From: Bacteroidota bacterium
GTDB taxonomy: Bacteria; Bacteroidota; Rhodothermia; Rhodothermales; Bin80
Assembly: GCA_028875125.1 (NCBI GenBank)
Contig: JAPPGC010000025.1
Coordinates: forward strand, 1-32,443
DNA length: 32,443 bases
Direction: 5' to 3'
Position 1 is the first letter of the stretch. Every line of letters starts with the position of its first letter. The notes beneath the pieces are model-generated. The model saw only the letters and a list, made by a program, of their open reading frames with translations. It ran no database searches and had not been told where the DNA came from. This document shows, piece by piece, positions 4,338 to 31,308 of this stretch. Both the position numbers and the translations under genes were made by a program.

Positions 4338-5508
4338 ATGATTCGCTTGCCGAAGAGGCGGGGAGTTGCAATTGCCAGATCGTCCGGGGCTGCGGTTCCG
4401 CTGCTGGCATCGCTTCTCATTCTAGTAGCAGGGCTGCGTCCTGGAGGCTCCGCGGAGGCCATGCAGAGTCGGGTACCCGAGTTGACGCTAACGGAAGTAT
4501 TTCGAATCGGAGATGAAGATGCAGCAGACGGCCTGCTTTTAGGGAGACCCAGAGACGTGGCGGTAGATTCCCGGGGAAGGTTGCATGTTGCCGACAGTGG
4601 CTGGGACGGATTGCTGGTGTTTTCGGATTCCGGGGCGCCAGAGGGTGTTATTGGGCGTGCTGGGAAAGGGCCCGGCGAATTCGAAACAGTTTGGTCCGTT
4701 CATATTGATGCGCAGGATTCCGTCTACGTCTGGGACAGTTCTCTGGATCGGATCACCATATTCTCTCCTGACGAGCATGAGTATGTCCACAGCTTCACGG
4801 TCCAGTATGATAGGATGCTTCCAGGCGGCTTTGTAGGGGCTATTGATCGCGGGTTTCTGATTCGGTTTTTCGGTATACCAGGCTGGGGCCTGCCTGCAAG
4901 CATGGAGAACCTGGTGGAAGTCAAGCTCCTCGACTGGAGTGGCGCAGCGATAATGGATTCCGTTGCGTATCTGCCACGTAAGGAGATGCTTGCGCTTACC
5001 ACCGGGGGGGGCGTTGTGGGGAAGGGATTTGCCGTTCGCACCTGCACCTCACTTTGTCTTGGCACCCGATCAGACGCTCTACTATGGCTCAAGCAGCGCA
5101 ATACGCTTGATGCGAACGGCAATTGATGGCGCTTCAAATGAAGCCATTGAGGTATCGCATATTCCGGTAAGCATTTCGAAGGCAGAGCGGGACAAGATCA
5201 TACAGGAGGAAGAGGAGAGGGCGTTCAAGCGCATGCTTCGGGATCGGCTTCCCGAGATGAAGCCGGCCTTTGTCCGCATTGTACCGGATGACGAGGGTCG
5301 ACTCTGGATTGCTTTGAGCCGCGCGGAAAAGGTCACCACAGTTGAGTGGCTGGTGGTGGATAGCACGGGAACAGTTGTGGCACGCACAGAATTGCCCGAG
5401 TACGTCAGGTTGTATGCCGTCAGAGAAGGCCGCGCCTACGGGCGGTTGACCAGCCCGGAGACGGACGTGCCCATGGTGGTAGCTTGGGCAATAGACTTTA
5501 GCGAATAG
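4338..5508 (+). pseudogene. 6-bladed beta-propeller protein, reading frame broken at a G8 tract
   Basis: The ATG at 4338 opens a frame with an N-terminal hydrophobic signal segment and NHL/6-bladed-propeller repeats (PRDVAVDSRGRLHVADSG, then GKGPGEF, then VHIDAQDSVYVWDSS). In that frame the protein ends at 5126 after about 40 atypical residues. Another frame continues the propeller (PHFVLAPDQTLYYG, FVRIVPDDEGRLWIALS) to a stop at 5506-5508. The two join at the run of eight G (5004-5011): with seven G the codons read Thr-Gly-Gly-Ala-Leu-Trp and give one 389-residue protein. The downstream half has no good start of its own. It may be a sequencing or assembly error, a slippage-switched gene, or an early pseudogene. 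It follows the RND gene by 20 bp and is probably in the same operon. Confidence 0.85.
5004..5011 (+). repeat. Run of eight G at the frameshift point
   Basis: Eight consecutive G lie exactly where the two halves of the beta-propeller frame meet. One base fewer restores a single uninterrupted frame. This is the longest G or C run I noticed in the window. Confidence 0.95.
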
Positions 5509-18404: not shown

Positions 18405-20390
18405 CTAATACCTGAGCAGATGGTCAAGTGATTCCTTGAGCCGTGCACGGGCAGAAAATATCTCGGTTTCCAGATTGAGCGAAAAGGGCACGGGGGTATC
18501 CAGACTGGCCACGCGTACCGGGGGTGCATCCAGGTACTCAAACCCTTCTTCCACGATCCTTGCAGTAATTTCACCTCCGAATCCACCGGTCATGCTAGCT
18601 TCATGCAGCACTAAAAGTCGGCCAGTTTTTTTAAGTGAGGCTAAAACCAGATCCTTGTCCCATGGCACGAGCGTTCGCAGGTCAACAACCTCAACGCCGG
18701 CACCAGTCTGCTCCTTTTGTAACTGGGCTTCTTCCAGCGCCCATTGAACACCAAGTCCATAGGTGACAATCGTGACATCTTCCCCCGGGTGCGCGCAGAC
18801 CGCGCTGCCCAAGGGAACGTCAAAAATATCATTTGGCACGGGTCCGCGCGTACTGCGATACAGATGTTTGTGCTCAAAATACAGGACCGGGTTCGGATCG
18901 GCTATTGAAGCGAGGAGCAGCCCTTTTGCATCACTTGGTGTTGCCGGAACAACAACTTTCAAGCCCGGAACATGACAGAACCAAGCCTCCTTGCATTGAG
19001 AATGGAACGGTCCGGCTCCGATATGTCCTCCGAATGGCGCCCGTATAGTCACATTAACCGGTGCATTCCACCGGTAAGTGGTTGTTGCCAGGTTGTTTAC
19101 AATCTGATTGAAACCACAGGCAATAAAATCGGCATACTGCATTTCGATGATAGGCCTAAACCCCTCAAGTGCCAATCCCAGAGCCGCCCCCAATATTCCA
19201 CTTTCTATGATGGGCGTGTTTCGCACGCGTTCTCGACCAAACTTCTCCATTAGACCTGCCGAGGTTTTGAAGACTCCGCCGTACTCGGCCACATCCTGTC
19301 CCATTAACAGCACGCGGTCGTCCTCGTCCATGGCCTGCCACATCGCTTCACGAATCGCATCAACGACCCGTATTTCTGGCTGGCTGCCGTGAGATGGTCG
19401 AAGGGGTGTACTGGTTGGCACGAAGACCGCAGCTTTTTCCCGGTCAGGGGAACTCTCCACCATGGGTTGCGCCAGTGCGTATTCAGAGGCGGCGCTGACG
19501 ATCCTTGATAGTTCTTCCCGCACATCTTCCACCTCCTTGGAGGAGGTTACCTTCGCTTCGGTCAGCCTTTTGATATACTGATCCACGGGATCCTTTTGTG
19601 CCCATTCCTCCATGAGCGCCTGCGGGACATATTTCGTTCCAGATGCCTCCTCGTGGCCTCGGCGGCGAAAGGTCTTCATCTCCAGGAGTGTGGCTCCTTT
19701 TCCTGCACGTGCACGCTCCGCGGCAGTACGGACGGCTGCTACCACACTGAGCACATTGTTACCATCAACGGATTCCCCCGGAAATCCGTATCCCGAGGCT
19801 GCGTCTGCCAAGTTGGCGATGGGCAGCGCCTCATCGGTCGGTGTGGAGAGACCGTAACCATTATTCTCAACGATGAACAACACAGGCAGCTTCCAAACCC
19901 CTGCCAGACTGCAGGCTTCATGGAAGTCCCCCTCCCTCGTGGCTCCGTCTCCGCAAAAAACTGCGGCGACATTTCCGCTGTTTTTGAGTTGGGCCGCCTG
20001 CGCAATACCACAGGCCACCGGGAGCATGGCTCCCAGGTGGGAGATCATCCCCACGATACGCTTTTCCGGCAGACCAAAATGAAAGGTCCTGTCCCGTCCC
20101 ATGGTATATCCTCCCTTCCGTCCCATTAACTGGCAGAACAAGGGCTTGAGGGGCACTTCCCGCGTGGTCCACACGCCCAAATTTCTGTGCAATGGGAGTA
20201 TCACATCGCTTCTTCGGAGTGCCCAGGTACAACCTACCGCAATTGCTTCCTGGCCATAGCCGCTGAACCATTTTGATATCCGGTTGTGGCGGATGAGCCG
20301 GAGCATATGTTCCTCGATAACACGAGGAAGAAGAAGCGCACGGAGAAGTCCGTGGTGTTCGTCGTTCGGAATCTGGTCAAGGGCACTCAA
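18405..20390 (-). CDS. 2-oxoacid dehydrogenase E1, fused alpha-beta
   Basis: This 661-residue thiamine-diphosphate enzyme has the alpha chain (about 1-320) and beta chain (about 345-661) of an E1 component in one polypeptide. The TPP/Mg motif is GDGATREGDFHEA (147-159) ending in ENNGYG (175-180). The beta half has VDAIREAMWQAM, the IIESGILGAALGLALEG helix with the cofactor Glu, and the APFGGHIGAGPFHSQ loop. Fused E1s of this type in Bacteroidota are annotated as branched-chain 2-oxoacid or pyruvate dehydrogenase; I cannot choose between them. E2 and E3 are absent here. The start is a TTG at 20390 that overlaps the stop of the sugar transferase gene; no Met occurs before residue 29, which would be too late. 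Confidence 0.93.
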   Translation of the reverse strand: MSALDQIPNDEHHGLLRALLLPRVIEEHMLRLIRHNRISKWFSGYGQEAIAVGCTWALRRSDVILPLHRNLGVWTTREVPLKPLFCQLMGRKGGYTMGRDRTFHFGLPEKRIVGMISHLGAMLPVACGIAQAAQLKNSGNVAAVFCGDGATREGDFHEACSLAGVWKLPVLFIVENNGYGLSTPTDEALPIANLADAASGYGFPGESVDGNNVLSVVAAVRTAAERARAGKGATLLEMKTFRRRGHEEASGTKYVPQALMEEWAQKDPVDQYIKRLTEAKVTSSKEVEDVREELSRIVSAASEYALAQPMVESSPDREKAAVFVPTSTPLRPSHGSQPEIRVVDAIREAMWQAMDEDDRVLLMGQDVAEYGGVFKTSAGLMEKFGRERVRNTPIIESGILGAALGLALEGFRPIIEMQYADFIACGFNQIVNNLATTTYRWNAPVNVTIRAPFGGHIGAGPFHSQCKEAWFCHVPGLKVVVPATPSDAKGLLLASIADPNPVLYFEHKHLYRSTRGPVPNDIFDVPLGSAVCAHPGEDVTIVTYGLGVQWALEEAQLQKEQTGAGVEVVDLRTLVPWDKDLVLASLKKTGRLLVLHEASMTGGFGGEITARIVEEGFEYLDAPPVRVASLDTPVPFSLNLETEIFSARARLKESLDHLLRY

Positions 20391-21808
20391 CGGCCGCCTC
20401 CGGATATTACCGCCTGAAAGGTCCGAAGCAGGATCTTCAAATCCATGGTCAAACTCATATTCTCGATGTAATAAAGGTCAAATTTGACCTTCTGCTGTAC
20501 ATCTTCAATGGAGCTGTCGTAGTGCCACATTACCTGAGCCCATCCAGTAATACCAGGCCGTATGCGGTGCCGGCGATTATAGAGTGGTATTTTGCCGATC
20601 AGTTTTTCTACAAAGTATGGCCGTTCTGGACGGGGTCCCACCAGGCTCATATCCCCGCGAAGCACATTCCAAAGCTGAGGAATTTCGTCGAGGCGAGTCC
20701 TGCGCAACCAGCCTCCGACAGGAGTATAGCGCGGGTCATCTTTGGAAGCCCAAACTGGTCCGGTCTGGGCTTCAGCATCCCGACGCATGGTTCTGAATTT
20801 ATACATGGTGAAAGTGCGTCCTTTACGTCCCACACGATTCTGCCTGTAAATTGACCCTCCCTTTGATGTGCTTGCTATGGCAATCGTGATCCCAATCCAT
20901 AGTGGTAATCCTACGACCAGAACCAGCAAGGCGACAATCAGATCAATTAGTCGCTTCGTGTACTGTTGCCAGGCGGGCATAGGGATCGGCAATACCTCAA
21001 TGAGCGGTAGACCATATATGTGTTCAGTCCGTGCCATACCACCGATCACTGAGTAAAAATCTGGCACGATCTTGAGCGTCACACTCTTGCCGTCGCACAG
21101 GCGCAGCACCTCAGACAGTTCTTTATTGTCTTCGGAGCCCAGCGCAATCAATACATCATGCACGAGCAACTCGTCAATCAGATCAGGTAATTGCTCTATG
21201 GCATGCTCGGGATGCTGATGTTGCAGGTCTTCTCCGTTTGAGGAAAGAACATCTTTCTGACCCAATCGCACTGCTCCAACAATTTGAATCCCTGCAGCTG
21301 GATATTTGGCTACATCCTGGTATAGGCGTTCTACCTGATCACTCCAGCCCACCACCAGGGCACGATGATTTCCATGGCCGCGCAGGATCAAAGCTTTCTG
21401 TACAGAACGTACTATGATCCGCCCGAAAACAATCATTCCCAGGAACGAAGCCCAGTAGATTGCGAGGCCGAACCGGTTTCCCACCGGATCCCAAAGGTCA
21501 ATGAATACGCTGAATGCAAGAATCAGGACGCCAACCGTAACTACTTTGATCAATGACACGCTCTCGTCAAGACGGCTCGAGGCATGCCGCTCCCGGTACA
21601 TGCCTGCAAGCAAGAGCATCACTATCCAAAAAGGTGTAGCTAGCACCGGGATAAACAAAGGGTAAATCACATCTCCCGTAACTGGGTGTTCAAAGCCCAT
21701 TATGTCGAAATCGCCGCGGAATCTCATCAACAGGAACACGAAGCCAGATGCCGAAGCAGCAAGGGTATCGACGACGATCAGGGAAATAATTTCAACTGTA
21801 CGGGACAT
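20387..21808 (-). CDS. Undecaprenyl-phosphate sugar transferase (polyprenyl glycosylphosphotransferase)
   Basis: This membrane enzyme attaches the first sugar-phosphate of a surface polysaccharide repeat unit to undecaprenyl phosphate. The 473 residues comprise an N-terminal membrane region of about four helices (about 5-120), a soluble CoA-binding-like domain (about 140-260), a further membrane helix near 280-300, and the catalytic bacterial sugar transferase domain. The latter shows YRQNRVGRKGRTFTMYKFRTM, RRTRLDEIPQLWNVLRGDMSLVGPRPE and YNRRHRIRPGITGWAQV. It is WbaP/WcaJ/ExoY-like in architecture; the sugar is unknown. It is the first gene of the minus block and divergent from the Wzi-like gene, which supports a polysaccharide role. 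Confidence 0.94.
   Translation of the reverse strand: MSRTVEIISLIVVDTLAASASGFVFLLMRFRGDFDIMGFEHPVTGDVIYPLFIPVLATPFWIVMLLLAGMYRERHASSRLDESVSLIKVVTVGVLILAFSVFIDLWDPVGNRFGLAIYWASFLGMIVFGRIIVRSVQKALILRGHGNHRALVVGWSDQVERLYQDVAKYPAAGIQIVGAVRLGQKDVLSSNGEDLQHQHPEHAIEQLPDLIDELLVHDVLIALGSEDNKELSEVLRLCDGKSVTLKIVPDFYSVIGGMARTEHIYGLPLIEVLPIPMPAWQQYTKRLIDLIVALLVLVVGLPLWIGITIAIASTSKGGSIYRQNRVGRKGRTFTMYKFRTMRRDAEAQTGPVWASKDDPRYTPVGGWLRRTRLDEIPQLWNVLRGDMSLVGPRPERPYFVEKLIGKIPLYNRRHRIRPGITGWAQVMWHYDSSIEDVQQKVKFDLYYIENMSLTMDLKILLRTFQAVISGGGR
20397..20401 (-). promoter_or_regulatory. Strong ribosome binding site fixing the TTG start of E1
   Basis: The minus strand reads GGAGG, six bases (CGGCCG), then TTG. This near-consensus Shine-Dalgarno lies inside the last codons of the sugar transferase gene and supports the TTG. 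It stands out because most genes in the window have no recognisable ribosome binding site. Confidence 0.75.
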
Positions 21809-22261
21809 TCTGGGAACAACACTGCAGGGGCTTATACTCTACCAATCCGAATCACGTTGCCCGATCTGATATCGTGATTGAGTGACCTAGACTTTTTTAC
21901 TCTTCGGGCGATTCCCCAGATCTATACAGCTTGCGATGGTGTTTCGGGTTGCATTTTGCGGACAGAGGAGGAATTTGGAATATTTCAACATGGTGCTGAT
22001 ACCAGTGGAGGGTCGTTAACTAGTTTGAGTCCGTTAAAGCTCTGATAGCGTAGCACATGAGGGAATATATTGAATGCCTTCGGCAAATGTCGTAATGATG
22101 CTAAACGACCGTTAACAACCCCCCTTTACGGTCGGGCACAGCGTTTCAGGCACATCCGCTATCGTCCTGAATACACTGGGGGTTTTCGCACGAACGGATC
22201 GTACTTTGCATTAATAGAGTTGTAACAACCTATCTTTCGTTTTCAACTATTTGCCTAATGC
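21809..22261. other. 453-bp divergent regulatory region with repeated GTTAA motifs
   Basis: This gap separates the sugar transferase (minus) and Wzi-like (plus) genes and must hold both promoters. GTTAAC occurs at 22015-22020 (preceded by GGTC) and 22111-22116 (preceded by GACC), and GTTAAA at 22033-22038 (preceded by GTCC). GACCGT...ACGGTC forms a 6-bp stem around the third site. These may be regulator sites; no gene is seen. Confidence 0.4.
22205..22238 (+). promoter_or_regulatory. Candidate Bacteroidota-type promoter for the outer-membrane operon
   Basis: TTTG at 22205-22208 and TATCTTTC at 22231-22238 match the Bacteroidota sigma consensus (TTTG, then TAnnTTTG) at seven of eight positions in the downstream box, with a 22-base spacer. 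The upstream gene start at 22262 is 23 bases further on. Such short motifs arise by chance. Confidence 0.4.
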
Positions 22262-23803
22262 ATGCTGCTGCGCGTGTTGTTTGTCAGCCCGATTATATTG
22301 TTACCCATTTTGGTCCAGGCCCAGGGGAATCGTCTGCTGTCGGTGAATGACTACGCCTACGAGTATATCGTACGGCTTCAGCGTCGAGGGCATCTACTTG
22401 AATTGAATCCCACATCGCTGCCGTATCGCCGAGGTGATGTGTGGGATGCGCTGAGTCGACTGGACACTACCGCCCTGAACAGTTCAGAGCAACACTGGAC
22501 AACGTTGCTTCGTCGCAAGCTTAAACCTGTCGACAAGCCGGAGGCTAAAACCACAGTAGGGTACACCTTCATGGCGGCAACTGATATTATCAACAGTGAC
22601 CGAAAAGATCTTGTCAGACCCCTGGGGGAGTCAGTTAATTTCTATTGGTACGGTACATGGGCCACCGGTTACCTTGAAGCTGGACCTGCTGTGGCAGAAC
22701 TCTCTTTGCAGCATAACCGCTTTTACGAAAACGATCCTGATGGCCTGGATGCTACGCTGCGCTTATGGGCTCGAAGTGAACACTCCTATGTAGGCTGGCA
22801 CAGTCGCTGGGTATCGGCCTATGCCGGACGCTGGGATATACACTGGAGCGCACCGGGTGATGCCTCCACAATTGTCAGCAATAATGCACGTAGTAGAGAC
22901 CAGATACTCCTGCGGATCGGGAGTCCCCGAGCATCCATAACCGCAGTCCTGAGTGAATTGGACAGCGCAACAGACGGGCGATACTACACGGGACGCGCCG
23001 CTGATGATTCAGTCGCCTTTGGAAGTACACGGCGGTTCCACGCCGCACATCGATGGGATTTCCGTCCGTCCAAGAAATTCGTGATCAGTTTTATGGAATC
23101 AGCCATTTATTCTGGACCCACTGCTGGAGTATCCCTGAAGTATCTCAACCCGGTGAACCCATTTACGTTTGTTGTAGACAATGTGCCAAAAAACGATGAT
23201 AACAACGGTTTTTTGGCAGGGCTTTTGTGGGCGCAGCTCAAACGTCTGACGCTTCAGGGGCAGTTTATGGTAGACGATATCCGCCTGCAGGCCAATACAG
23301 GCCCGGAGACGATCACTTTTGTACTTACCGGTTCGGCAACGTATGCACTGCCCAGAGCTGACCTCAGGTTAACGTTGGAAACGGTTACGTCAAGGGCTTA
23401 CAATGCTCCGCAGACTGAAGGACAGTACATATTTCTCAATCGGGGGCTGGCCACACAGTTTAGTGATTACGTACACACTTCATTGTCTGCTGAGTTTTAC
23501 ATGGACCATAAAGTCCGCGGACTGCGATTTGGACCCAGGCTGGATATGCTGCTGCAGGGGGAACGCGATATGCGCCAGCCATTCCCGGGCAATTCGGAAA
23601 CCGTGAGTAATCTTCTTGATGGTGACGTAGAGCAAACCATTCGCGGATCAATCGGCGTGACCTACCAACCGACGCATTGGTGGTGGATTGCAGCTGACGG
23701 AGGCTATAATGTGACCGATAGCGGCAGTAATCGTCTCGTGGGGTTGATAAGCGCAGGGGTGATACTCACGCTCGACACCGCCATAGACCTTTGGAGCCAG
23801 TGA
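22262..23803 (+). CDS. Wzi-like capsule assembly outer-membrane protein
   Basis: This 513-residue exported protein has a signal peptide (MLLRVLFVSPIILLPILVQA, cleaved near residue 20) and a mature N-terminus NDYAYEYIVRLQRRGHLLELNPTSLPYRRGDVWDAL, which fits the Wzi-type capsule assembly proteins annotated widely in Bacteroidota. The remainder is a run of alternating amphipathic strands, expected for an 18-strand-type barrel. E. coli Wzi helps anchor capsule at the surface; a role in polysaccharide attachment or export is likely here. It heads a three-gene operon and overlaps the next gene by a GTGA. It is divergent from the sugar transferase gene. Confidence 0.85.
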   Translation: MLLRVLFVSPIILLPILVQAQGNRLLSVNDYAYEYIVRLQRRGHLLELNPTSLPYRRGDVWDALSRLDTTALNSSEQHWTTLLRRKLKPVDKPEAKTTVGYTFMAATDIINSDRKDLVRPLGESVNFYWYGTWATGYLEAGPAVAELSLQHNRFYENDPDGLDATLRLWARSEHSYVGWHSRWVSAYAGRWDIHWSAPGDASTIVSNNARSRDQILLRIGSPRASITAVLSELDSATDGRYYTGRAADDSVAFGSTRRFHAAHRWDFRPSKKFVISFMESAIYSGPTAGVSLKYLNPVNPFTFVVDNVPKNDDNNGFLAGLLWAQLKRLTLQGQFMVDDIRLQANTGPETITFVLTGSATYALPRADLRLTLETVTSRAYNAPQTEGQYIFLNRGLATQFSDYVHTSLSAEFYMDHKVRGLRFGPRLDMLLQGERDMRQPFPGNSETVSNLLDGDVEQTIRGSIGVTYQPTHWWWIAADGGYNVTDSGSNRLVGLISAGVILTLDTAIDLWSQ

Positions 23804-24369
23804 GGCGCCCATTGACAATACTGGTCCTGCTTGCAGTTGCGGCCCCCTGCCTCGCACAGGATCCGTTCAGCAGTCTGGAAATGCGCATTCAGGCAACACA
23901 GAATGTGAACCAAAACATCCTGCATGATCACTGGCATCCCGGTCGGGGCATGAAAGCATCCCTGGTTACACCATTTTATTTCGGCGACTGGGGGATCAGT
24001 CTAGGTATTCATCGCTTTGATGCCCGCAGCGATGTACCCGGGTTTGGGGCACTATGGATTAGCTCGGATTGGGGGGTGAGGTTACCATTTGGGTACCGGT
24101 TCGCACTGACACCTACGGTCGGTATAGGTAACTATCGTATGTCATTTGATGATGCGGTAACAACGTTTTCCGGCGAGAGCAGCGAGAGTGATTTTGTCAG
24201 TAGTGCAAGTCTGCGAGCTTCACTAAGAATTGGTCGGGATTGGTTTCTGTTTGGTCAGGCTGAGCACCTACGCGTACAAACCAGACCTTTAATGCAACTC
24301 TGGTTTGTCTCTGCCGGAATTGGTTATCAGATGGAAACAGGCAAACTCCTCAAAGCTATTCTGGAATGA
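23800..24369 (+). CDS. Small exported beta-barrel-like protein
   Basis: The GTG at 23800 overlaps the Wzi-like stop and gives a 189-residue protein with a clean signal peptide (VRRPLTILVLLAVAAPCLAQ). A TTG at 23791 is the alternative start. The mature part has many amphipathic strands (SLVTPFYFGDWGISLGIHRF, GVRLPFGYRFALTPTVGIGNYRM, LMQLWFVSAGIGYQM) as in an 8- to 10-strand outer-membrane barrel, and ends in LLKAILE rather than an aromatic residue. No named family recognised. It is followed by an ATGA overlap into the TonB-receptor-like gene, so it is probably made with both neighbours. Confidence 0.75.
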   Translation: MRRPLTILVLLAVAAPCLAQDPFSSLEMRIQATQNVNQNILHDHWHPGRGMKASLVTPFYFGDWGISLGIHRFDARSDVPGFGALWISSDWGVRLPFGYRFALTPTVGIGNYRMSFDDAVTTFSGESSESDFVSSASLRASLRIGRDWFLFGQAEHLRVQTRPLMQLWFVSAGIGYQMETGKLLKAILE

Positions 24370-26270
24370 TGCTTTGCTGGTGCAGGACGACATTATGTCT
24401 GCTGATTGCGGCCGGCACGACAATGGTTGTCTGTGCCCAGGTATTGACTGCGGAAGACTTTACTAGGGCCGGTGTACTCAGACTGAGTGATATTCTGGAA
24501 CTGGCAGACGACTGGTCTGGCAGTTCTACTGAGGGATACCACTGGGATATTGCGCCTCTGGGAACGTCTTGGGAGGCTAGCCCTGAGTGGAGTCTGTTCA
24601 TTGATGGGCAGTTGATCAGCTTACGGGCATTAAATCGCCAGAGCCTCAACACCTTGCCCATAGCACTTTCAGAAATATGTGAAATTCGTCTGAACGCAAC
24701 CCCCGTACTCACTGGCGGGGTGTTGGCGCATGGAGGGGCGGTTCAGATTACCACGTGCAAACCATCCAGAGGTTTATCCCTAAGGGGACAAGTTGGCGCT
24801 GGCAATGAAACCGGAGATCCCGGCCCGTACAAATACACGGACCTCGGAGGGTCCAATGTAGATCGTACCGGCCCCACTGCTGAGGCCGCCCTTTCCGTCA
24901 GCTCCAGTAACTGGCACTATCGTGGGATGGTGGCTGCAGACGAACATCATGTAACTGATCCTCGCATCCGACCGCGCGTACTGCAGCTTTACCGGGGCGA
25001 AAAAGATGCACGTATTATCTATCGTGCATTCGGCTTTGATGGCTCTTCCTCTGGTTTTACGGTCAACGCAGCTACCAGCCGGATAGAAGATCTGCTGTTC
25101 ACACCTGTTATGGGAAGAGAGATTCCTGTTGATCGGCAGACAACGTTCGTGACTATGTCTTCTGCCCGCAGATTACTTGGATATTCTATATCGGGTATTA
25201 GTGCAAGTTTAACCACACGTGAAAACCCGGAAACGATTCTCACTGACATTGTCCAGCGGCGGACACATATGCGCCTGCATTCAACGAGATCTCTGGGAAT
25301 AAACTCGATTGAATTTGGTGCAGGATGGGTATTCGCGCAGGCACAGTTTGGTCCCGAAGAATTACGCCATACGCTTTACTCATACCGCGGGGATGCCACA
25401 CTCAGCCTAGGGCCACCAGATCGACTACGCATGCGCACCATGGCTGCATTATCACGTGACGACAGGATATTGGGCTATGAAGTGTTCTCCCGCATATGGC
25501 ATGATCGGATTGGACTTGATCTGCGGGTGATGCTCAGAAACCGGGCACCTGCCGCCGAAATGACGTTCGCCGACTGGGCAACGAGAGGATTTCGCCCCGG
25601 GAATGCCGAGCTTCGCTTCATGCATCTGGATATACCCAAACGGAGGTCAACTTATTCTTTGGATCTTGCTTGGACCACAGGCACCCAGGTCAAACTGTAC
25701 CTGAGCGGTGGTTTACGAAGGCTGACTAATCACATGCGACCACGCATGCATGCCCTACTCGACTCAACCCGTACACGCTTACATGCAACAACGGACATCG
25801 TAGCTGCCAGTGGCCAGATTGCTCGGGCAAGTGGGCGTATTCACATGCCTCTCACCAGTCAATTTACCGTGAAATTCTATGGCGTTTATGCTTATCCATG
25901 GTCGGATGCGGATGCATTTCGCAGCGCATGGTACCACCGGATGCAAGTCGGAGGGCAGGCAGAATTTCATCCCAATGATCGATTTAGCCTGAATATGCGT
26001 CTCCGCTATGTTGGGGCAACGACTTGGGCGGAGTTTGAAGAGGCGGCCGCGGGCAATCCGGAATTTTACACTTCGCGGCTACCTGGCGCAGTATATCTGC
26101 ATCTTACCGTTCAGAAAAGATTCTGGGGGGAGCGACTGCGCATGAGTGCCACAATGCGGAATGTACTGGACCACCCCCACCTCGTTCACCCTGCGGGGGC
26201 GCGAACAAATGCTTTGTTTCAGGTTGCGATGCGTTACGCTTTTCGGGCTAGTAACGCTGGTTCCTCCTAA
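24366..26270 (+). CDS. TonB-dependent-receptor-like outer-membrane protein, short form
   Basis: This 634-residue exported protein (signal to about residue 24, VVCA before Q) starts with a plug-like region: GVLRLSDILELADDW (36-50), PEWSLFIDGQLISLRALNRQSLNTLPIALSEICEIRLN (73-110), then GGVLAHGGAVQITT (117-130). A long barrel follows and closes with FWGERLRMSATMRNVLDHPHLVHP and FQVAMRYAF, typical of TonB-receptor C-termini. There is no carboxypeptidase-like N-terminal domain and no clear TonB box, and it is short for the family. A short tail (RASNAGSS) follows the final aromatic strand. It could import a small ligand or act as a plugged channel partner of the Wzi-like protein. The ATG overlaps the previous stop (ATGA). 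Confidence 0.75.
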   Translation: MMLCWCRTTLCLLIAAGTTMVVCAQVLTAEDFTRAGVLRLSDILELADDWSGSSTEGYHWDIAPLGTSWEASPEWSLFIDGQLISLRALNRQSLNTLPIALSEICEIRLNATPVLTGGVLAHGGAVQITTCKPSRGLSLRGQVGAGNETGDPGPYKYTDLGGSNVDRTGPTAEAALSVSSSNWHYRGMVAADEHHVTDPRIRPRVLQLYRGEKDARIIYRAFGFDGSSSGFTVNAATSRIEDLLFTPVMGREIPVDRQTTFVTMSSARRLLGYSISGISASLTTRENPETILTDIVQRRTHMRLHSTRSLGINSIEFGAGWVFAQAQFGPEELRHTLYSYRGDATLSLGPPDRLRMRTMAALSRDDRILGYEVFSRIWHDRIGLDLRVMLRNRAPAAEMTFADWATRGFRPGNAELRFMHLDIPKRRSTYSLDLAWTTGTQVKLYLSGGLRRLTNHMRPRMHALLDSTRTRLHATTDIVAASGQIARASGRIHMPLTSQFTVKFYGVYAYPWSDADAFRSAWYHRMQVGGQAEFHPNDRFSLNMRLRYVGATTWAEFEEAAAGNPEFYTSRLPGAVYLHLTVQKRFWGERLRMSATMRNVLDHPHLVHPAGARTNALFQVAMRYAFRASNAGSS

Positions 26271-27522: not shown

Positions 27523-30500
27523 CTATTGAGCTGACGCTTCAGCGGTTCGCAAATACGCGAACAGATCTTGAATCTCTTGGTCGGACAGCACAGAGAGCAA
27601 GTCTTCCGGCATTAATGATTCCTCAGAAACCTCCAATGATTGTATTTCGGTACGGTTCAGCACAACATCTTTCAGTCCTATGGGCCGGAGCGTAACTTGG
27701 CGGTCACTTTCACCTACAAGTGTACCTACATAAGTCCGTCCGTCGCGGGACGTAACGAGCACCATCCGGTAATCGTCCTGAATGAACTCATCCGGGTAAA
27801 TGAGATTGGTGAGCAGATAGTCCACATCTGTTCGATTGGAACCCGTCAGGTCCGGGCCTATAAGTCCGCCGACACCATTCATTTGATGGCATGCCCCACA
27901 GGCCTGTGCAAACACATTCTGTCCATTGGCGGCATCTGCTGCCATTCCAGACGTTACCAGGGTGTGATATCGGGCGTAAGCCGCGGCTTTATCCTCTGGA
28001 AGCTCGTCGATCGGACCCCAGATTTCTACAAAACCACTTCCCACAACACGCCGCATTTGTCGGGCTACCCAGACCGGAATATCAGTCCGCTGGATTGAAC
28101 CTTCACGGAGTGACTCGACCAGCATCCATCCGTATACTGGACGCGATGCCATGGTTTGAATGATGGCCTCTTTTTCGGAAGGGGTTGCGTCCGTGTACAT
28201 TGAAACCAGAAGTTGCCCCAGTTCCTGGTCATTGAAAGCTGCTACTGCCTGGATTGATGCAGTTCGCATATTCGGGTCGTTAATCAATTCAAACAGGGCT
28301 TGTCTGAGTGCATCAGGTTGTGATGGTGCAAGTGTCGTCAATGCGGCAATACGTCGCTCTGAATCCAGAGAAGCATTCATCACTTCAGTCATAAGGGCTC
28401 GTTCAGCCTCAGCATCACCAAATAGCTGGGCAACTGTTGTAGCCAGTGCACGGGTTTCACTTTTGCGTCGCAATCTCCGGTAGGTACGGTCCCAGTCTTC
28501 GGGTGCTTCTATATCCCCCGCACCTTCCAGGCCCGCCACCATTCCACGCAACAGATGCTCATTCCGGTTTGCATGAAGTTCGACTAGCAGTGGAGACATA
28601 TGTCCGGCTTCAACCAGTCGCCGCCCCACAAACTCTGTCATTTTCGGATAGTCGTCCGCATCTTCAATAAGCAAAAGTGCACGTTCAGGTTCTTCCGCCA
28701 CCAGTGGCTCAAAACCTGTCCATAATAGCGTTGGAATGTTTGGGTCTTCGCTGTCCTCCGAGTGGTTCATCAAAGCCTCAATGATTGGCCATCGCCGATC
28801 ATTGGGAATCCGTTGAAGCATAGCGGCCAGGTATTTACGTACGACTGGAGAATTCTCCCTTTCGGCAAGTTCCTCAAGAGTAAGCAGAACTTCAGGGTCA
28901 ATGGCGTCCTGTTCCGTGATCAATCGAACGCCCCAGGCTCTTATGTAGGGTTCCCTGTCCTGCAGAGCACCCAAAAGAGTTTCAAGCGAGAAATTGTCTG
29001 TAATGTACAGCGACCACAGCGCACGCAGTCTGAGCGGCGTTGTAGCACCAGTTTCATAGAGTGTGTTCAGATGTGTCAGGGCTGAGGCATCCAGTGCTCG
29101 CGTGCTCGCACGGTGCTGCAATATCACACGGGCGCGCCGGGCATGCCAGTCACTGCGACTCTCCTGAAGCTGCGCTAGTTCAAGGTCACTGAGCTGACGC
29201 AGATCCCCATAACGACCATCCCATTCCACGGCATGTGACTCTGACGGTGTAATTCGAAAGATCCTCCCGGTATCCTTGTCTAAAACGTCCCCGCCACAGA
29301 TGTCCGCATCGTGCCAGTCAAGAACATATAGCGCTCCCTCTGGGCCTATCTCCATACTGAAGCCAACCCATTGGGCATTATGCGCCATCATAAACTCATC
29401 TCCGTGACTGGCTATGAACCCACTACGACTCGGTTGTAGTACATCACTCAGGACTGCGTGCTCATGAATATTGGCCATGAACAGGCGATCCGTTTCTTCG
29501 GGGGCAAATGCATCAGATTGATAAATGCGGGCGCCCCCGTGCGCCGAACGGTGTCGGTGGTCTACAATGGGAGCAATATCTTCGTAAATATGGGGGTTCA
29601 AGTGAGTGCTACCCTGCCGCATGTAGATGCCTCCTGGGGTCACATGGAAAACATGCGGGATCACACAGGCACTTATAAAGAGTTCGCCATGTGCGTCGTA
29701 ATCAATTCCCCAGGGGTTGCTGAAGCCATGTGCCACTGTTTCAAACTTGTCCTTTATTGGATGATAGCGCCATACGCCACCATTGATTTCCACACCGTCG
29801 GCCTCCAATAGGTCTTCCGGGAAGGCGTCGTTATGTCTATAGAGCCGTGCTTCTGGCCCCGGTTTTCTTATGACCGACGAGGTGGCAAATCCTTCAAGGC
29901 CATAGAGCCATCCATCAGGCCCCCAGTGAAAACTGTTAATCGTCTCGTGTCTGTCCCGAATTCCCCAACCAGTAAGGCGGATCTCAATATCATTAACATC
30001 TGCACGGTCATCGCCATCGCGATCGGGGATAAAGAGCAGGTGGGGCGGGGCGCCAAGAAAGACTCCATCAAAGCCCACGGCCAGTGCGCTCGGAAAAGCG
30101 ATCCCTTCCATAAAAACTTTTCGAACATCTGCGGTGCCATCGCGATCAGTATCTTCCAGAATCACGATACGACTATCTCCAGACCCAGAAAATCCTGTCT
30201 GACGTGATTCGTAGTCCCGATTTTCTGCTATCCACAACCGCCCTTTATCATCCCAGGCAAAGGCCATGGGCTGCGTGAGAAGCGGTTCACCGGCCCACGC
30301 GTTAACCTCGTAGCCTTCCTTCAGCGTCATCATCTCTGCTGCTGCAACTGGGGTAAGGAACTCTGCTTCGCGCGCTTCCTGCTGCGCCAAGCCCCAGAGG
30401 GACGCGGTGGAATACATTGCACCGGAGCGATCGGCATAGTCCTCCCATTTTGCCCGCATTGTAATGTCACTCATTTCTCCCGTGTACACGAGTAAGCGGT

Positions 30501-31308
30501 GTCGGATGGTTTCCATACTACCAGCTTCAATGGTCCAGTCGCCAAGTCTGGCACGAACGGGCCCTACTCCCAATTGGCCATCCACACGCCAGGGTTGTGG
30601 GAAATCCGCATTATTAGGATGATCAAATATGGCTACATGGGCCATATCTTCACGCCCGGGCAGCTCAAGACCGACATCCATCCACATGGCCCGCTGGCCC
30701 TCAGCAAAATGATTGCGCTGTCGTGCAGCATTCACTGCGCGCCCTTCCATACCCGGGGCCCAGGGCATCCGTAGGAACAGCCCGCCGTAATCATATTCGC
30801 CGACAACAACGTCGGTGATGGCCTTGCCCGTCCAAGTTAAATCCAGTACCACAGAATTGTCCGCTTCGTACATAGTCCAGTTCTGGGTTTCTTGGAGAAC
30901 AGGGTTGCCGTTCTCGTCAAGTAGATCGTAGACGGTAGCCCAGCCAATAGTGTCTCCGGCGGCTCTGGTAACCATCACAGTATCTCTTTGCCAATAATCT
31001 CCTTCTGGGTGATGGAAGTAATCCCGGCCATTCAGTCGTGTGAAGCCCCAGTACAGGCCGGTCTGATGAGGATGATGGCCGGGACTATATTGTGTCACTG
31101 AGCTCGCACCATCCGGGGTCAGGATTGGGTGCAAAAACGGCCTGAAGTCCCGAGCAGACTGCACCACCAGTGCAGTGTCGCCACGCACATCGTTCAGTAC
31201 AATAACCTGATCGTCCGTTATTAATGCCCTCAGGCGAGTAGTCTCGGTTACGCTGGATGTGCAGCCCGCAAGGGCAACAACAATTACTATTGGAGTCAGG
31301 TATTTCAT
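27523..31308 (-). CDS. Large lipoprotein: DUF6807, PVC-type propeller, HEAT repeats and cytochrome c
   Basis: This 1261-residue protein starts MKYLTPIVIVVALAGC, a clean lipobox (Cys16). Residues about 30-310 match DUF6807/PmoA-like (PGHHPHQTGLYWGFTRLNG, YFHHPEGDYWQRDT). About 330-720 is a PVC-type membrane-bound-dehydrogenase propeller (MAFAWDDKGRLWIAENRDY, INSFHWGPDGWLYGLEG, SNPWGIDYDAHGELFIS). About 750-1060 are HEAT-like helical repeats, and about 1115-1261 is a cytochrome c with the heme site CGACH (near 1134) and a likely axial Met in LMPEDLL. PVC-type members are thought to oxidise sugars or sugar alcohols; the DUF6807 substrate is not known. It is probably membrane-anchored in the periplasm, passing electrons to the heme. 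Domain limits are approximate. Confidence 0.88.
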   Translation of the reverse strand: MKYLTPIVIVVALAGCTSSVTETTRLRALITDDQVIVLNDVRGDTALVVQSARDFRPFLHPILTPDGASSVTQYSPGHHPHQTGLYWGFTRLNGRDYFHHPEGDYWQRDTVMVTRAAGDTIGWATVYDLLDENGNPVLQETQNWTMYEADNSVVLDLTWTGKAITDVVVGEYDYGGLFLRMPWAPGMEGRAVNAARQRNHFAEGQRAMWMDVGLELPGREDMAHVAIFDHPNNADFPQPWRVDGQLGVGPVRARLGDWTIEAGSMETIRHRLLVYTGEMSDITMRAKWEDYADRSGAMYSTASLWGLAQQEAREAEFLTPVAAAEMMTLKEGYEVNAWAGEPLLTQPMAFAWDDKGRLWIAENRDYESRQTGFSGSGDSRIVILEDTDRDGTADVRKVFMEGIAFPSALAVGFDGVFLGAPPHLLFIPDRDGDDRADVNDIEIRLTGWGIRDRHETINSFHWGPDGWLYGLEGFATSSVIRKPGPEARLYRHNDAFPEDLLEADGVEINGGVWRYHPIKDKFETVAHGFSNPWGIDYDAHGELFISACVIPHVFHVTPGGIYMRQGSTHLNPHIYEDIAPIVDHRHRSAHGGARIYQSDAFAPEETDRLFMANIHEHAVLSDVLQPSRSGFIASHGDEFMMAHNAQWVGFSMEIGPEGALYVLDWHDADICGGDVLDKDTGRIFRITPSESHAVEWDGRYGDLRQLSDLELAQLQESRSDWHARRARVILQHRASTRALDASALTHLNTLYETGATTPLRLRALWSLYITDNFSLETLLGALQDREPYIRAWGVRLITEQDAIDPEVLLTLEELAERENSPVVRKYLAAMLQRIPNDRRWPIIEALMNHSEDSEDPNIPTLLWTGFEPLVAEEPERALLLIEDADDYPKMTEFVGRRLVEAGHMSPLLVELHANRNEHLLRGMVAGLEGAGDIEAPEDWDRTYRRLRRKSETRALATTVAQLFGDAEAERALMTEVMNASLDSERRIAALTTLAPSQPDALRQALFELINDPNMRTASIQAVAAFNDQELGQLLVSMYTDATPSEKEAIIQTMASRPVYGWMLVESLREGSIQRTDIPVWVARQMRRVVGSGFVEIWGPIDELPEDKAAAYARYHTLVTSGMAADAANGQNVFAQACGACHQMNGVGGLIGPDLTGSNRTDVDYLLTNLIYPDEFIQDDYRMVLVTSRDGRTYVGTLVGESDRQVTLRPIGLKDVVLNRTEIQSLEVSEESLMPEDLLSVLSDQEIQDLFAYLRTAEASAQ

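Follow-up and report, generated by a model that had tools for sequence, protein, structure and literature searches.

A TonB box, through which the inner membrane can power them, is part of the usual description of proteins of the TonB-receptor fold, and in the SusC-SusD and BtuB-BtuG systems the barrel works with a partner that is a surface lipoprotein. The present analysis concerns a three-gene operon (genes 1, 2, and 3) in a stretch of 32,443 nucleotides from a Bacteroidota bacterium of the order Rhodothermales (assembly GCA_028875125.1, contig JAPPGC010000025.1). This stretch, referred to as the window, comprises the entire contig and belongs to a genome of 3.3 Mb. Gene 3 encodes a predicted plugged barrel of the TonB-receptor fold in which no TonB box is seen, and in about a dozen phyla it is found almost always directly behind gene 2, which encodes a predicted small barrel; gene 1 encodes a Wzi-like protein.

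According to a recent review, every TonB-dependent transporter (TBDT) has a TonB box (PMC11658791). The nearest of these transporters to gene 3 is BtuB (1nqe, 2gsk), with which it shares a plug, a 22-strand barrel, and a similar length; however, it differs from BtuB-type transporters in having neither a TonB box nor an N-terminal extension, in an identity of 12%–13%, and in possessing invariant loop residues of its own and a near-constant 8-strand partner. A TBDT-fold barrel with a dedicated partner encoded alongside it is likewise found in SusC-SusD and BtuB-BtuG, but the predicted 8-strand barrel of gene 2 has an ordinary signal peptide and is thus unlike the lipoprotein partners of those systems. 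Oar of Myxococcus xanthus also has the TBDT fold together with a role other than nutrient uptake, namely protein secretion (PMC6434023); Oar, however, possesses a TonB box and depends on the Ton system. For gene 1, the closest described system is Wzi (PF14052; Escherichia coli K30 Wzi, PMC3791409), the likeness lying in a borderline sequence match to the family and a polysaccharide context, and the difference in a score just below the cut-off, a partial profile match, and the operon link to a plugged barrel. Features expected of a Wzi capsule assembly protein also include an 18-strand barrel with an N-terminal helical bundle and binding of capsular polysaccharide.

A predicted plugged barrel without a TonB box

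Gene 3 (24366–26270, plus strand) encodes 634 amino acids (aa), predicted by AlphaFold to form a plug and 22 strands with mostly short loops (pLDDT 90.4, pTM 0.91). Its best solved folds, by Foldseek and VIA, are TBDTs, and BtuB is the top VIA match (Z 31.7, root-mean-square deviation 3.2, 510 residues aligned); the family profile also matches the plug of FecA (E ~1e-6) and, more weakly, that of Cir. A first-pass annotation, made from the sequence of the window, had described the product as a short TonB-receptor-like protein. The resemblance holds, given the plug and the BtuB-like 22-strand barrel, whereas the word "short" does not, 634 aa being the size of BtuB. The window copy itself has no match in Pfam, including to Plug and TonB_dep_Rec, and is absent from the 38 Plug matches of its genome; six of 45 relatives match Plug, weakly.

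The plug domain (24438–24758, plus strand; residues 25–131, from the model and from comparison of N termini) starts at the predicted signal-peptide cleavage site, and the predicted mature N terminus is the first plug strand. No TonB box was seen in 107 gene 3 homologues, in which 0 to about 18 residues separate the signal peptide from the plug, with cleavage sites assigned by eye. For a control, a sample of 20 was taken from the 38 Plug-matching receptors of the same genome, and all 20 have a segment between signal peptide and plug that holds a TonB-box-like motif (e.g., DEVIVTADR or EEIIVTGYG). In view of the review cited above, gene 3 has the fold of this class and lacks one of its defining features. 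Transport driven by the proton motive force is expected of TBDTs; judged from its model, gene 3 shares their fold, and it has neither their box nor their profile match. A literature search, incomplete in coverage, found no family of receptors without a TonB box.

Outside the plug, gene 3 columns that are at least 70% conserved cluster at the predicted extracellular loops, with p values of 2.4e-5 in a Rhodothermales set and 8e-6 in a Balneola-order set, which are rough because columns are not independent. Both sets were found without a motif seed, and loops were assigned by the DSSP string of the model, not by coordinates. Predicted loop L1 carries the motif GNETGDPGP (24801–24827, plus strand; residues 146–154). 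Every set shows P152-G153-P154 of this motif, N164, R204, and E252 as invariant or almost so—P-G-P being invariant throughout—and W554, N599, and H608 come just behind. Conservation of GNExGDPGP among the loci of the large genome scan described below is by construction, since the motif seeded that scan, and is excluded from the conservation claim. The pattern points to a putative outer-face site for a ligand or partner, or to a structural lid.

The gene 2–gene 3 pair

Gene 2 (23800–24369, plus strand; 189 aa; GTG start) had been proposed to encode a small barrel, and the AlphaFold model of a natural gene 2–gene 3 fusion agrees, predicting eight strands followed by a C-terminal helix (pLDDT ~95). 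Pfam returned sub-threshold matches only, and a search of the gene 2 profile against PDB sequences gave NspA as the sole, non-significant match (E 0.35). The likely cleavage site, PCLAQD, read by eye, has no lipobox-type mature cysteine. In two metagenome-assembled genomes of Neomarinimicrobiota/FCB (L161, 3–1487, and L176, 2401–4359, both plus strand), the N terminus of gene 2 is fused to additional sequence, in which inspection by eye suggests beta-helix repeats and a segment resembling a dockerin.

When 84,980 species genomes were searched with the gene 3 profile, 80 loci were obtained, from Rhodothermales, Balneolales, Ignavibacteriales, Melioribacteraceae, Calditrichota, Gemmatimonadota, Latescibacterota, Neomarinimicrobiota, Zixibacteria, KSB1, Cloacimonadota, Krumholzibacteria, Eisenbacteria, and Fibrobacter. 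Gene 2 lies immediately upstream of gene 3, usually overlapping it, in 112 of 116 distinct loci from about a dozen phyla, and the −4 overlap seen in the window is also common in other phyla. Outside Rhodothermales, the pair is present without gene 1. Matches were found in 35 of 128 Balneolales genomes, three of which (L175, L178, and L181) hold genes 2 and 3 as a single uninterrupted frame with a linker; besides these fusions, the two genes are separate or partly recovered. MAFFT misaligned rows containing gene 2 or gene 3 only against the fusion in large sets, and a smaller ranked set aligned cleanly. The natural fusion, of 867 residues, was modelled as eight strands, a disordered linker, the plug, and 22 strands, with a pTM of 0.83, which we read as higher than would be expected of independently placed barrels and hence as a crude sign in favour of a defined arrangement.

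The near-constant adjacency, the three natural fusions, and the fusion model together make a complex of the gene 2 and gene 3 products likely, and the widespread pair is a more interesting finding than the trio. It appears to be previously unnamed, having no name in any family library searched; a search of NCBIfam matched none of the three operon proteins. That a family found in about a dozen phyla keeps the plugged fold without the box, along with a near-constant small barrel, suggests a second, TonB-free working of the fold, and the natural fusions offer a direct way of testing the pair.

Variants of the layout were also seen. In one genome (G078; L119, 367–2367 and 3240–5315, minus strand), a single gene 2 copy is flanked by two gene 3 copies, and in four loci of one Rhodothermales family (L126, 9383–9865; L129, 7745–8215; L190; and L192), a small lipoprotein gene directly upstream of gene 2 replaces gene 1.

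Gene 1 and polysaccharide synthesis

The exported 513 aa product of gene 1 (22262–23803, plus strand) scores 29.5 bits against PF14052 (Wzi), slightly below the cut-off of 30.1, and the match spans part of the profile. Its designation as Wzi-like is supported by its relatives: the family has 43 members with many invariant residues, 37 of the 43 match PF14052 (best 1.8e-13), and a relative passes the cut-off with 39.9 bits. The gene 1 profile had no match among PDB sequences. A conserved N-terminal stretch, DYAYEYIVRLQRRGHLLELNPTSLPYRRGDV (22262–22500), resembles an SLH-type repeat by eye; a Pfam scan found no SLH match in gene 1.

The operon had been described as divergent from a sugar transferase that starts polysaccharide synthesis, and this is confirmed by an undecaprenyl-phosphate-type sugar transferase gene (20387–21808, minus strand; Bac_transf and CoA_binding_3; PF02397, E = 5e-69), separated from gene 1 by the intergenic region 21809–22261. 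The head-to-head arrangement is conserved, occurring in 41 of 50 loci with sufficient flank, a count in which the same genome sometimes appears twice. Among these are four genomes in which no pair adjoins gene 1. Two of them, G016 and G049, retain the gene 1–sugar transferase arrangement and carry genes 2 and 3 on another contig; in the other two, G040 and G082, the arrangement is likewise present and genes 2 and 3 were not found. In total, the pair was not found in six genomes carrying gene 1 (G040, G058, G074, G082, G117, and G118), and in G011, gene 3 is located about 0.87 Mb away from genes 1 and 2. Relatives of gene 1 in G117, G118, and G081 lie among genes for UDP-glucose dehydrogenases, epimerases, and an aminotransferase or glycosyltransferase. 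Linkage to the sugar transferase in the absence of the pair, together with these polysaccharide clusters, indicates that gene 1 follows polysaccharide synthesis, and a surface-glycan role for gene 1 is supported, the link to glycan being direct in its case.

Next to the sugar transferase lies a gene for a 661 aa protein (18405–20390, minus strand) in which the two parts of a dehydrogenase E1, alpha and beta, are apparently fused; most relatives keep this gene in synteny with gene 1 and the sugar transferase.

One operon, two proposed modules

In Rhodothermales, gene 1 is joined to the pair in one operon, and the order of gene 1 followed by the pair is kept in 33 distinct loci; the arrangement in the window is thus not due to chance. 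The first-pass annotation suggested that the three products may form one complex, which could export or anchor a surface glycan. Overlapping genes and the retained order speak for such a stable three-part complex, whereas gene 1 is apart from genes 2 and 3 in G016, G049, and G011, stands in the six genomes named above where no pair was found, and is missing beside the pair in other phyla. As gene 1 follows another partner, the proposal is only partly supported: it survives for genes 2 and 3, through their adjacency and fusions, but not for the trio, which we consider very unlikely to form a stable complex. The same division applies to the glycan device, for which the tie of gene 1 to polysaccharide synthesis stands and the single three-part machine is not supported. 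Scattering of the three genes in relatives, which the annotation had named as refuting its proposal, is thus seen in part.

The best-supported explanation is that gene 3 would be a plugged barrel that works at the cell surface uncoupled from TonB, with the small barrel holding or gating it, and that is joined here to a Wzi-like glycan protein. Genes 1–3 would accordingly be two modules combined in one operon, a gene 2–gene 3 core and gene 1 with its sugar transferase, and we judge this explanation to have an even chance of being right when taken as a whole (two modules, uncoupled plugged barrel with small barrel, and shared operon). Within the core, gene 3—of the TonB-receptor fold, closed by its plug, and without a TonB box—would be bound to the 8-strand barrel of gene 2. 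With no box for TonB to pull, the plug would be either permanently shut, leaving gene 3 as a surface receptor or anchor, or gated from the periplasmic side by the small barrel. The conserved extracellular rim (loops L1, L2, L3, L10, and L11) would bind a ligand or surface partner. Gene 1, as a Wzi-like surface-polysaccharide protein, would form the second module with the divergent sugar transferase, and the simplest purpose of the shared operon in Rhodothermales would be to place the plugged barrel pair where the Wzi-like protein handles glycan. On this reading, the products of genes 2 and 3 would bind one another in this species, gene 2 would gate or anchor, and glycan would be the ligand of gene 3; a glycan role of the pair would come by association with gene 1. 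The genome has one match to a Wza-type exporter, on another contig, and gene 3 is hence not needed to explain polysaccharide export.

Several observations weigh against the two-module explanation. The pair has no consistent polysaccharide neighbours outside Rhodothermales, and the pTM of the fusion model is only an indirect reading of the interface between the two barrels. The remaining points bear on other roles for the pair and are considered with them.

Alternative roles for the pair

BtuB, the nearest solved fold of gene 3, is an uptake transporter, and gene 3 might similarly import a small ligand, in which case TonB would touch gene 2 or the plug in some way not yet recognised. In one Rhodothermales family the pair is divergent from a cobalamin adenosyltransferase gene, but this neighbour is absent elsewhere; in families f5, f7, and f12 a TonB-C-domain gene lies one to two genes downstream, but it is convergent. 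Acidic and amide residues at the extracellular mouth of the gene 3 model could bind metal. On balance, uptake is considered unlikely. A different role is suggested by the Ignavibacteria, in which the pair precedes a protein sorted by the type IX secretion system (T9SS): genes 2 and 3 are followed there by a small membrane protein and a protein of ~1370 aa, a layout that recurs in several loci, and the one large protein scanned (L164) has Ig-like domains and Por_Secre_tail. The pair could thus be a T9SS accessory that anchors or handles a sorted surface protein. The small lipoprotein that takes the place of gene 1 in one Rhodothermales family also has a sorting-domain-like Ig segment, its Pfam match being too weak to count, and SprA was found in the genome of the window. 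However, SprA is present in 115 of 119 relatives, with or without the pair, and there is hence no co-occurrence signal; moreover, T9SS cargo is common in such genomes, and the operon in the window has no T9SS-sorted neighbour. We consider this role improbable.

The Ignavibacteria, cobalamin, and TonB-C-domain contexts nevertheless keep two other roles alive, one with surface proteins and one in an unusual kind of uptake. A broader form of the two-barrel explanation would accommodate surface proteins as well: a superphylum-wide machine in which a TonB-uncoupled channel, gated or held by the 8-strand barrel, might serve outward traffic or surface attachment, of glycan in Rhodothermales and of surface proteins elsewhere. 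This extension is put forward tentatively and is doubtful at present.

In seven Ignavibacteria loci (L149, L164, L170, L171, L172, L183, and L195), gene 3 is followed by a small protein and then by a very large one; the small protein has a single membrane segment, at its C terminus, and a TFG-P motif that recurs.

Operon layout and other features of the window

The three consecutive genes overlap as originally noted, and both overlaps can be read directly in the sequence: GTGA at the stop of gene 1 and start of gene 2 (23800–23803, plus strand), and ATGA at the stop of gene 2 and start of gene 3 (24366–24369, plus strand). A second in-frame ATG at 24369 is a possible alternative start of gene 3. 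All three products have signal-peptide-like N termini, in keeping with their description as exported, and the conserved overlaps support the suggestion that they are probably made together. Downstream of gene 3, the convergent neighbour encodes a protein with a sub-threshold PorV match. Long opposite-strand open reading frames (ORFs) in GC-rich relatives were taken as probable antisense frames and excluded from gene counts.

Elsewhere in the window, two overlapping ORFs (4338–5508, plus strand) resemble one beta-propeller-type gene, frameshifted at a run of G at ~5004–5012; this probably reflects an error in sequencing or assembly, or else a recent disruption of the gene. A protein of 1261 aa (27523–31308, minus strand) combines DUF6807, DUF7133, HEAT repeats, and a cytochrome c domain in a single chain.

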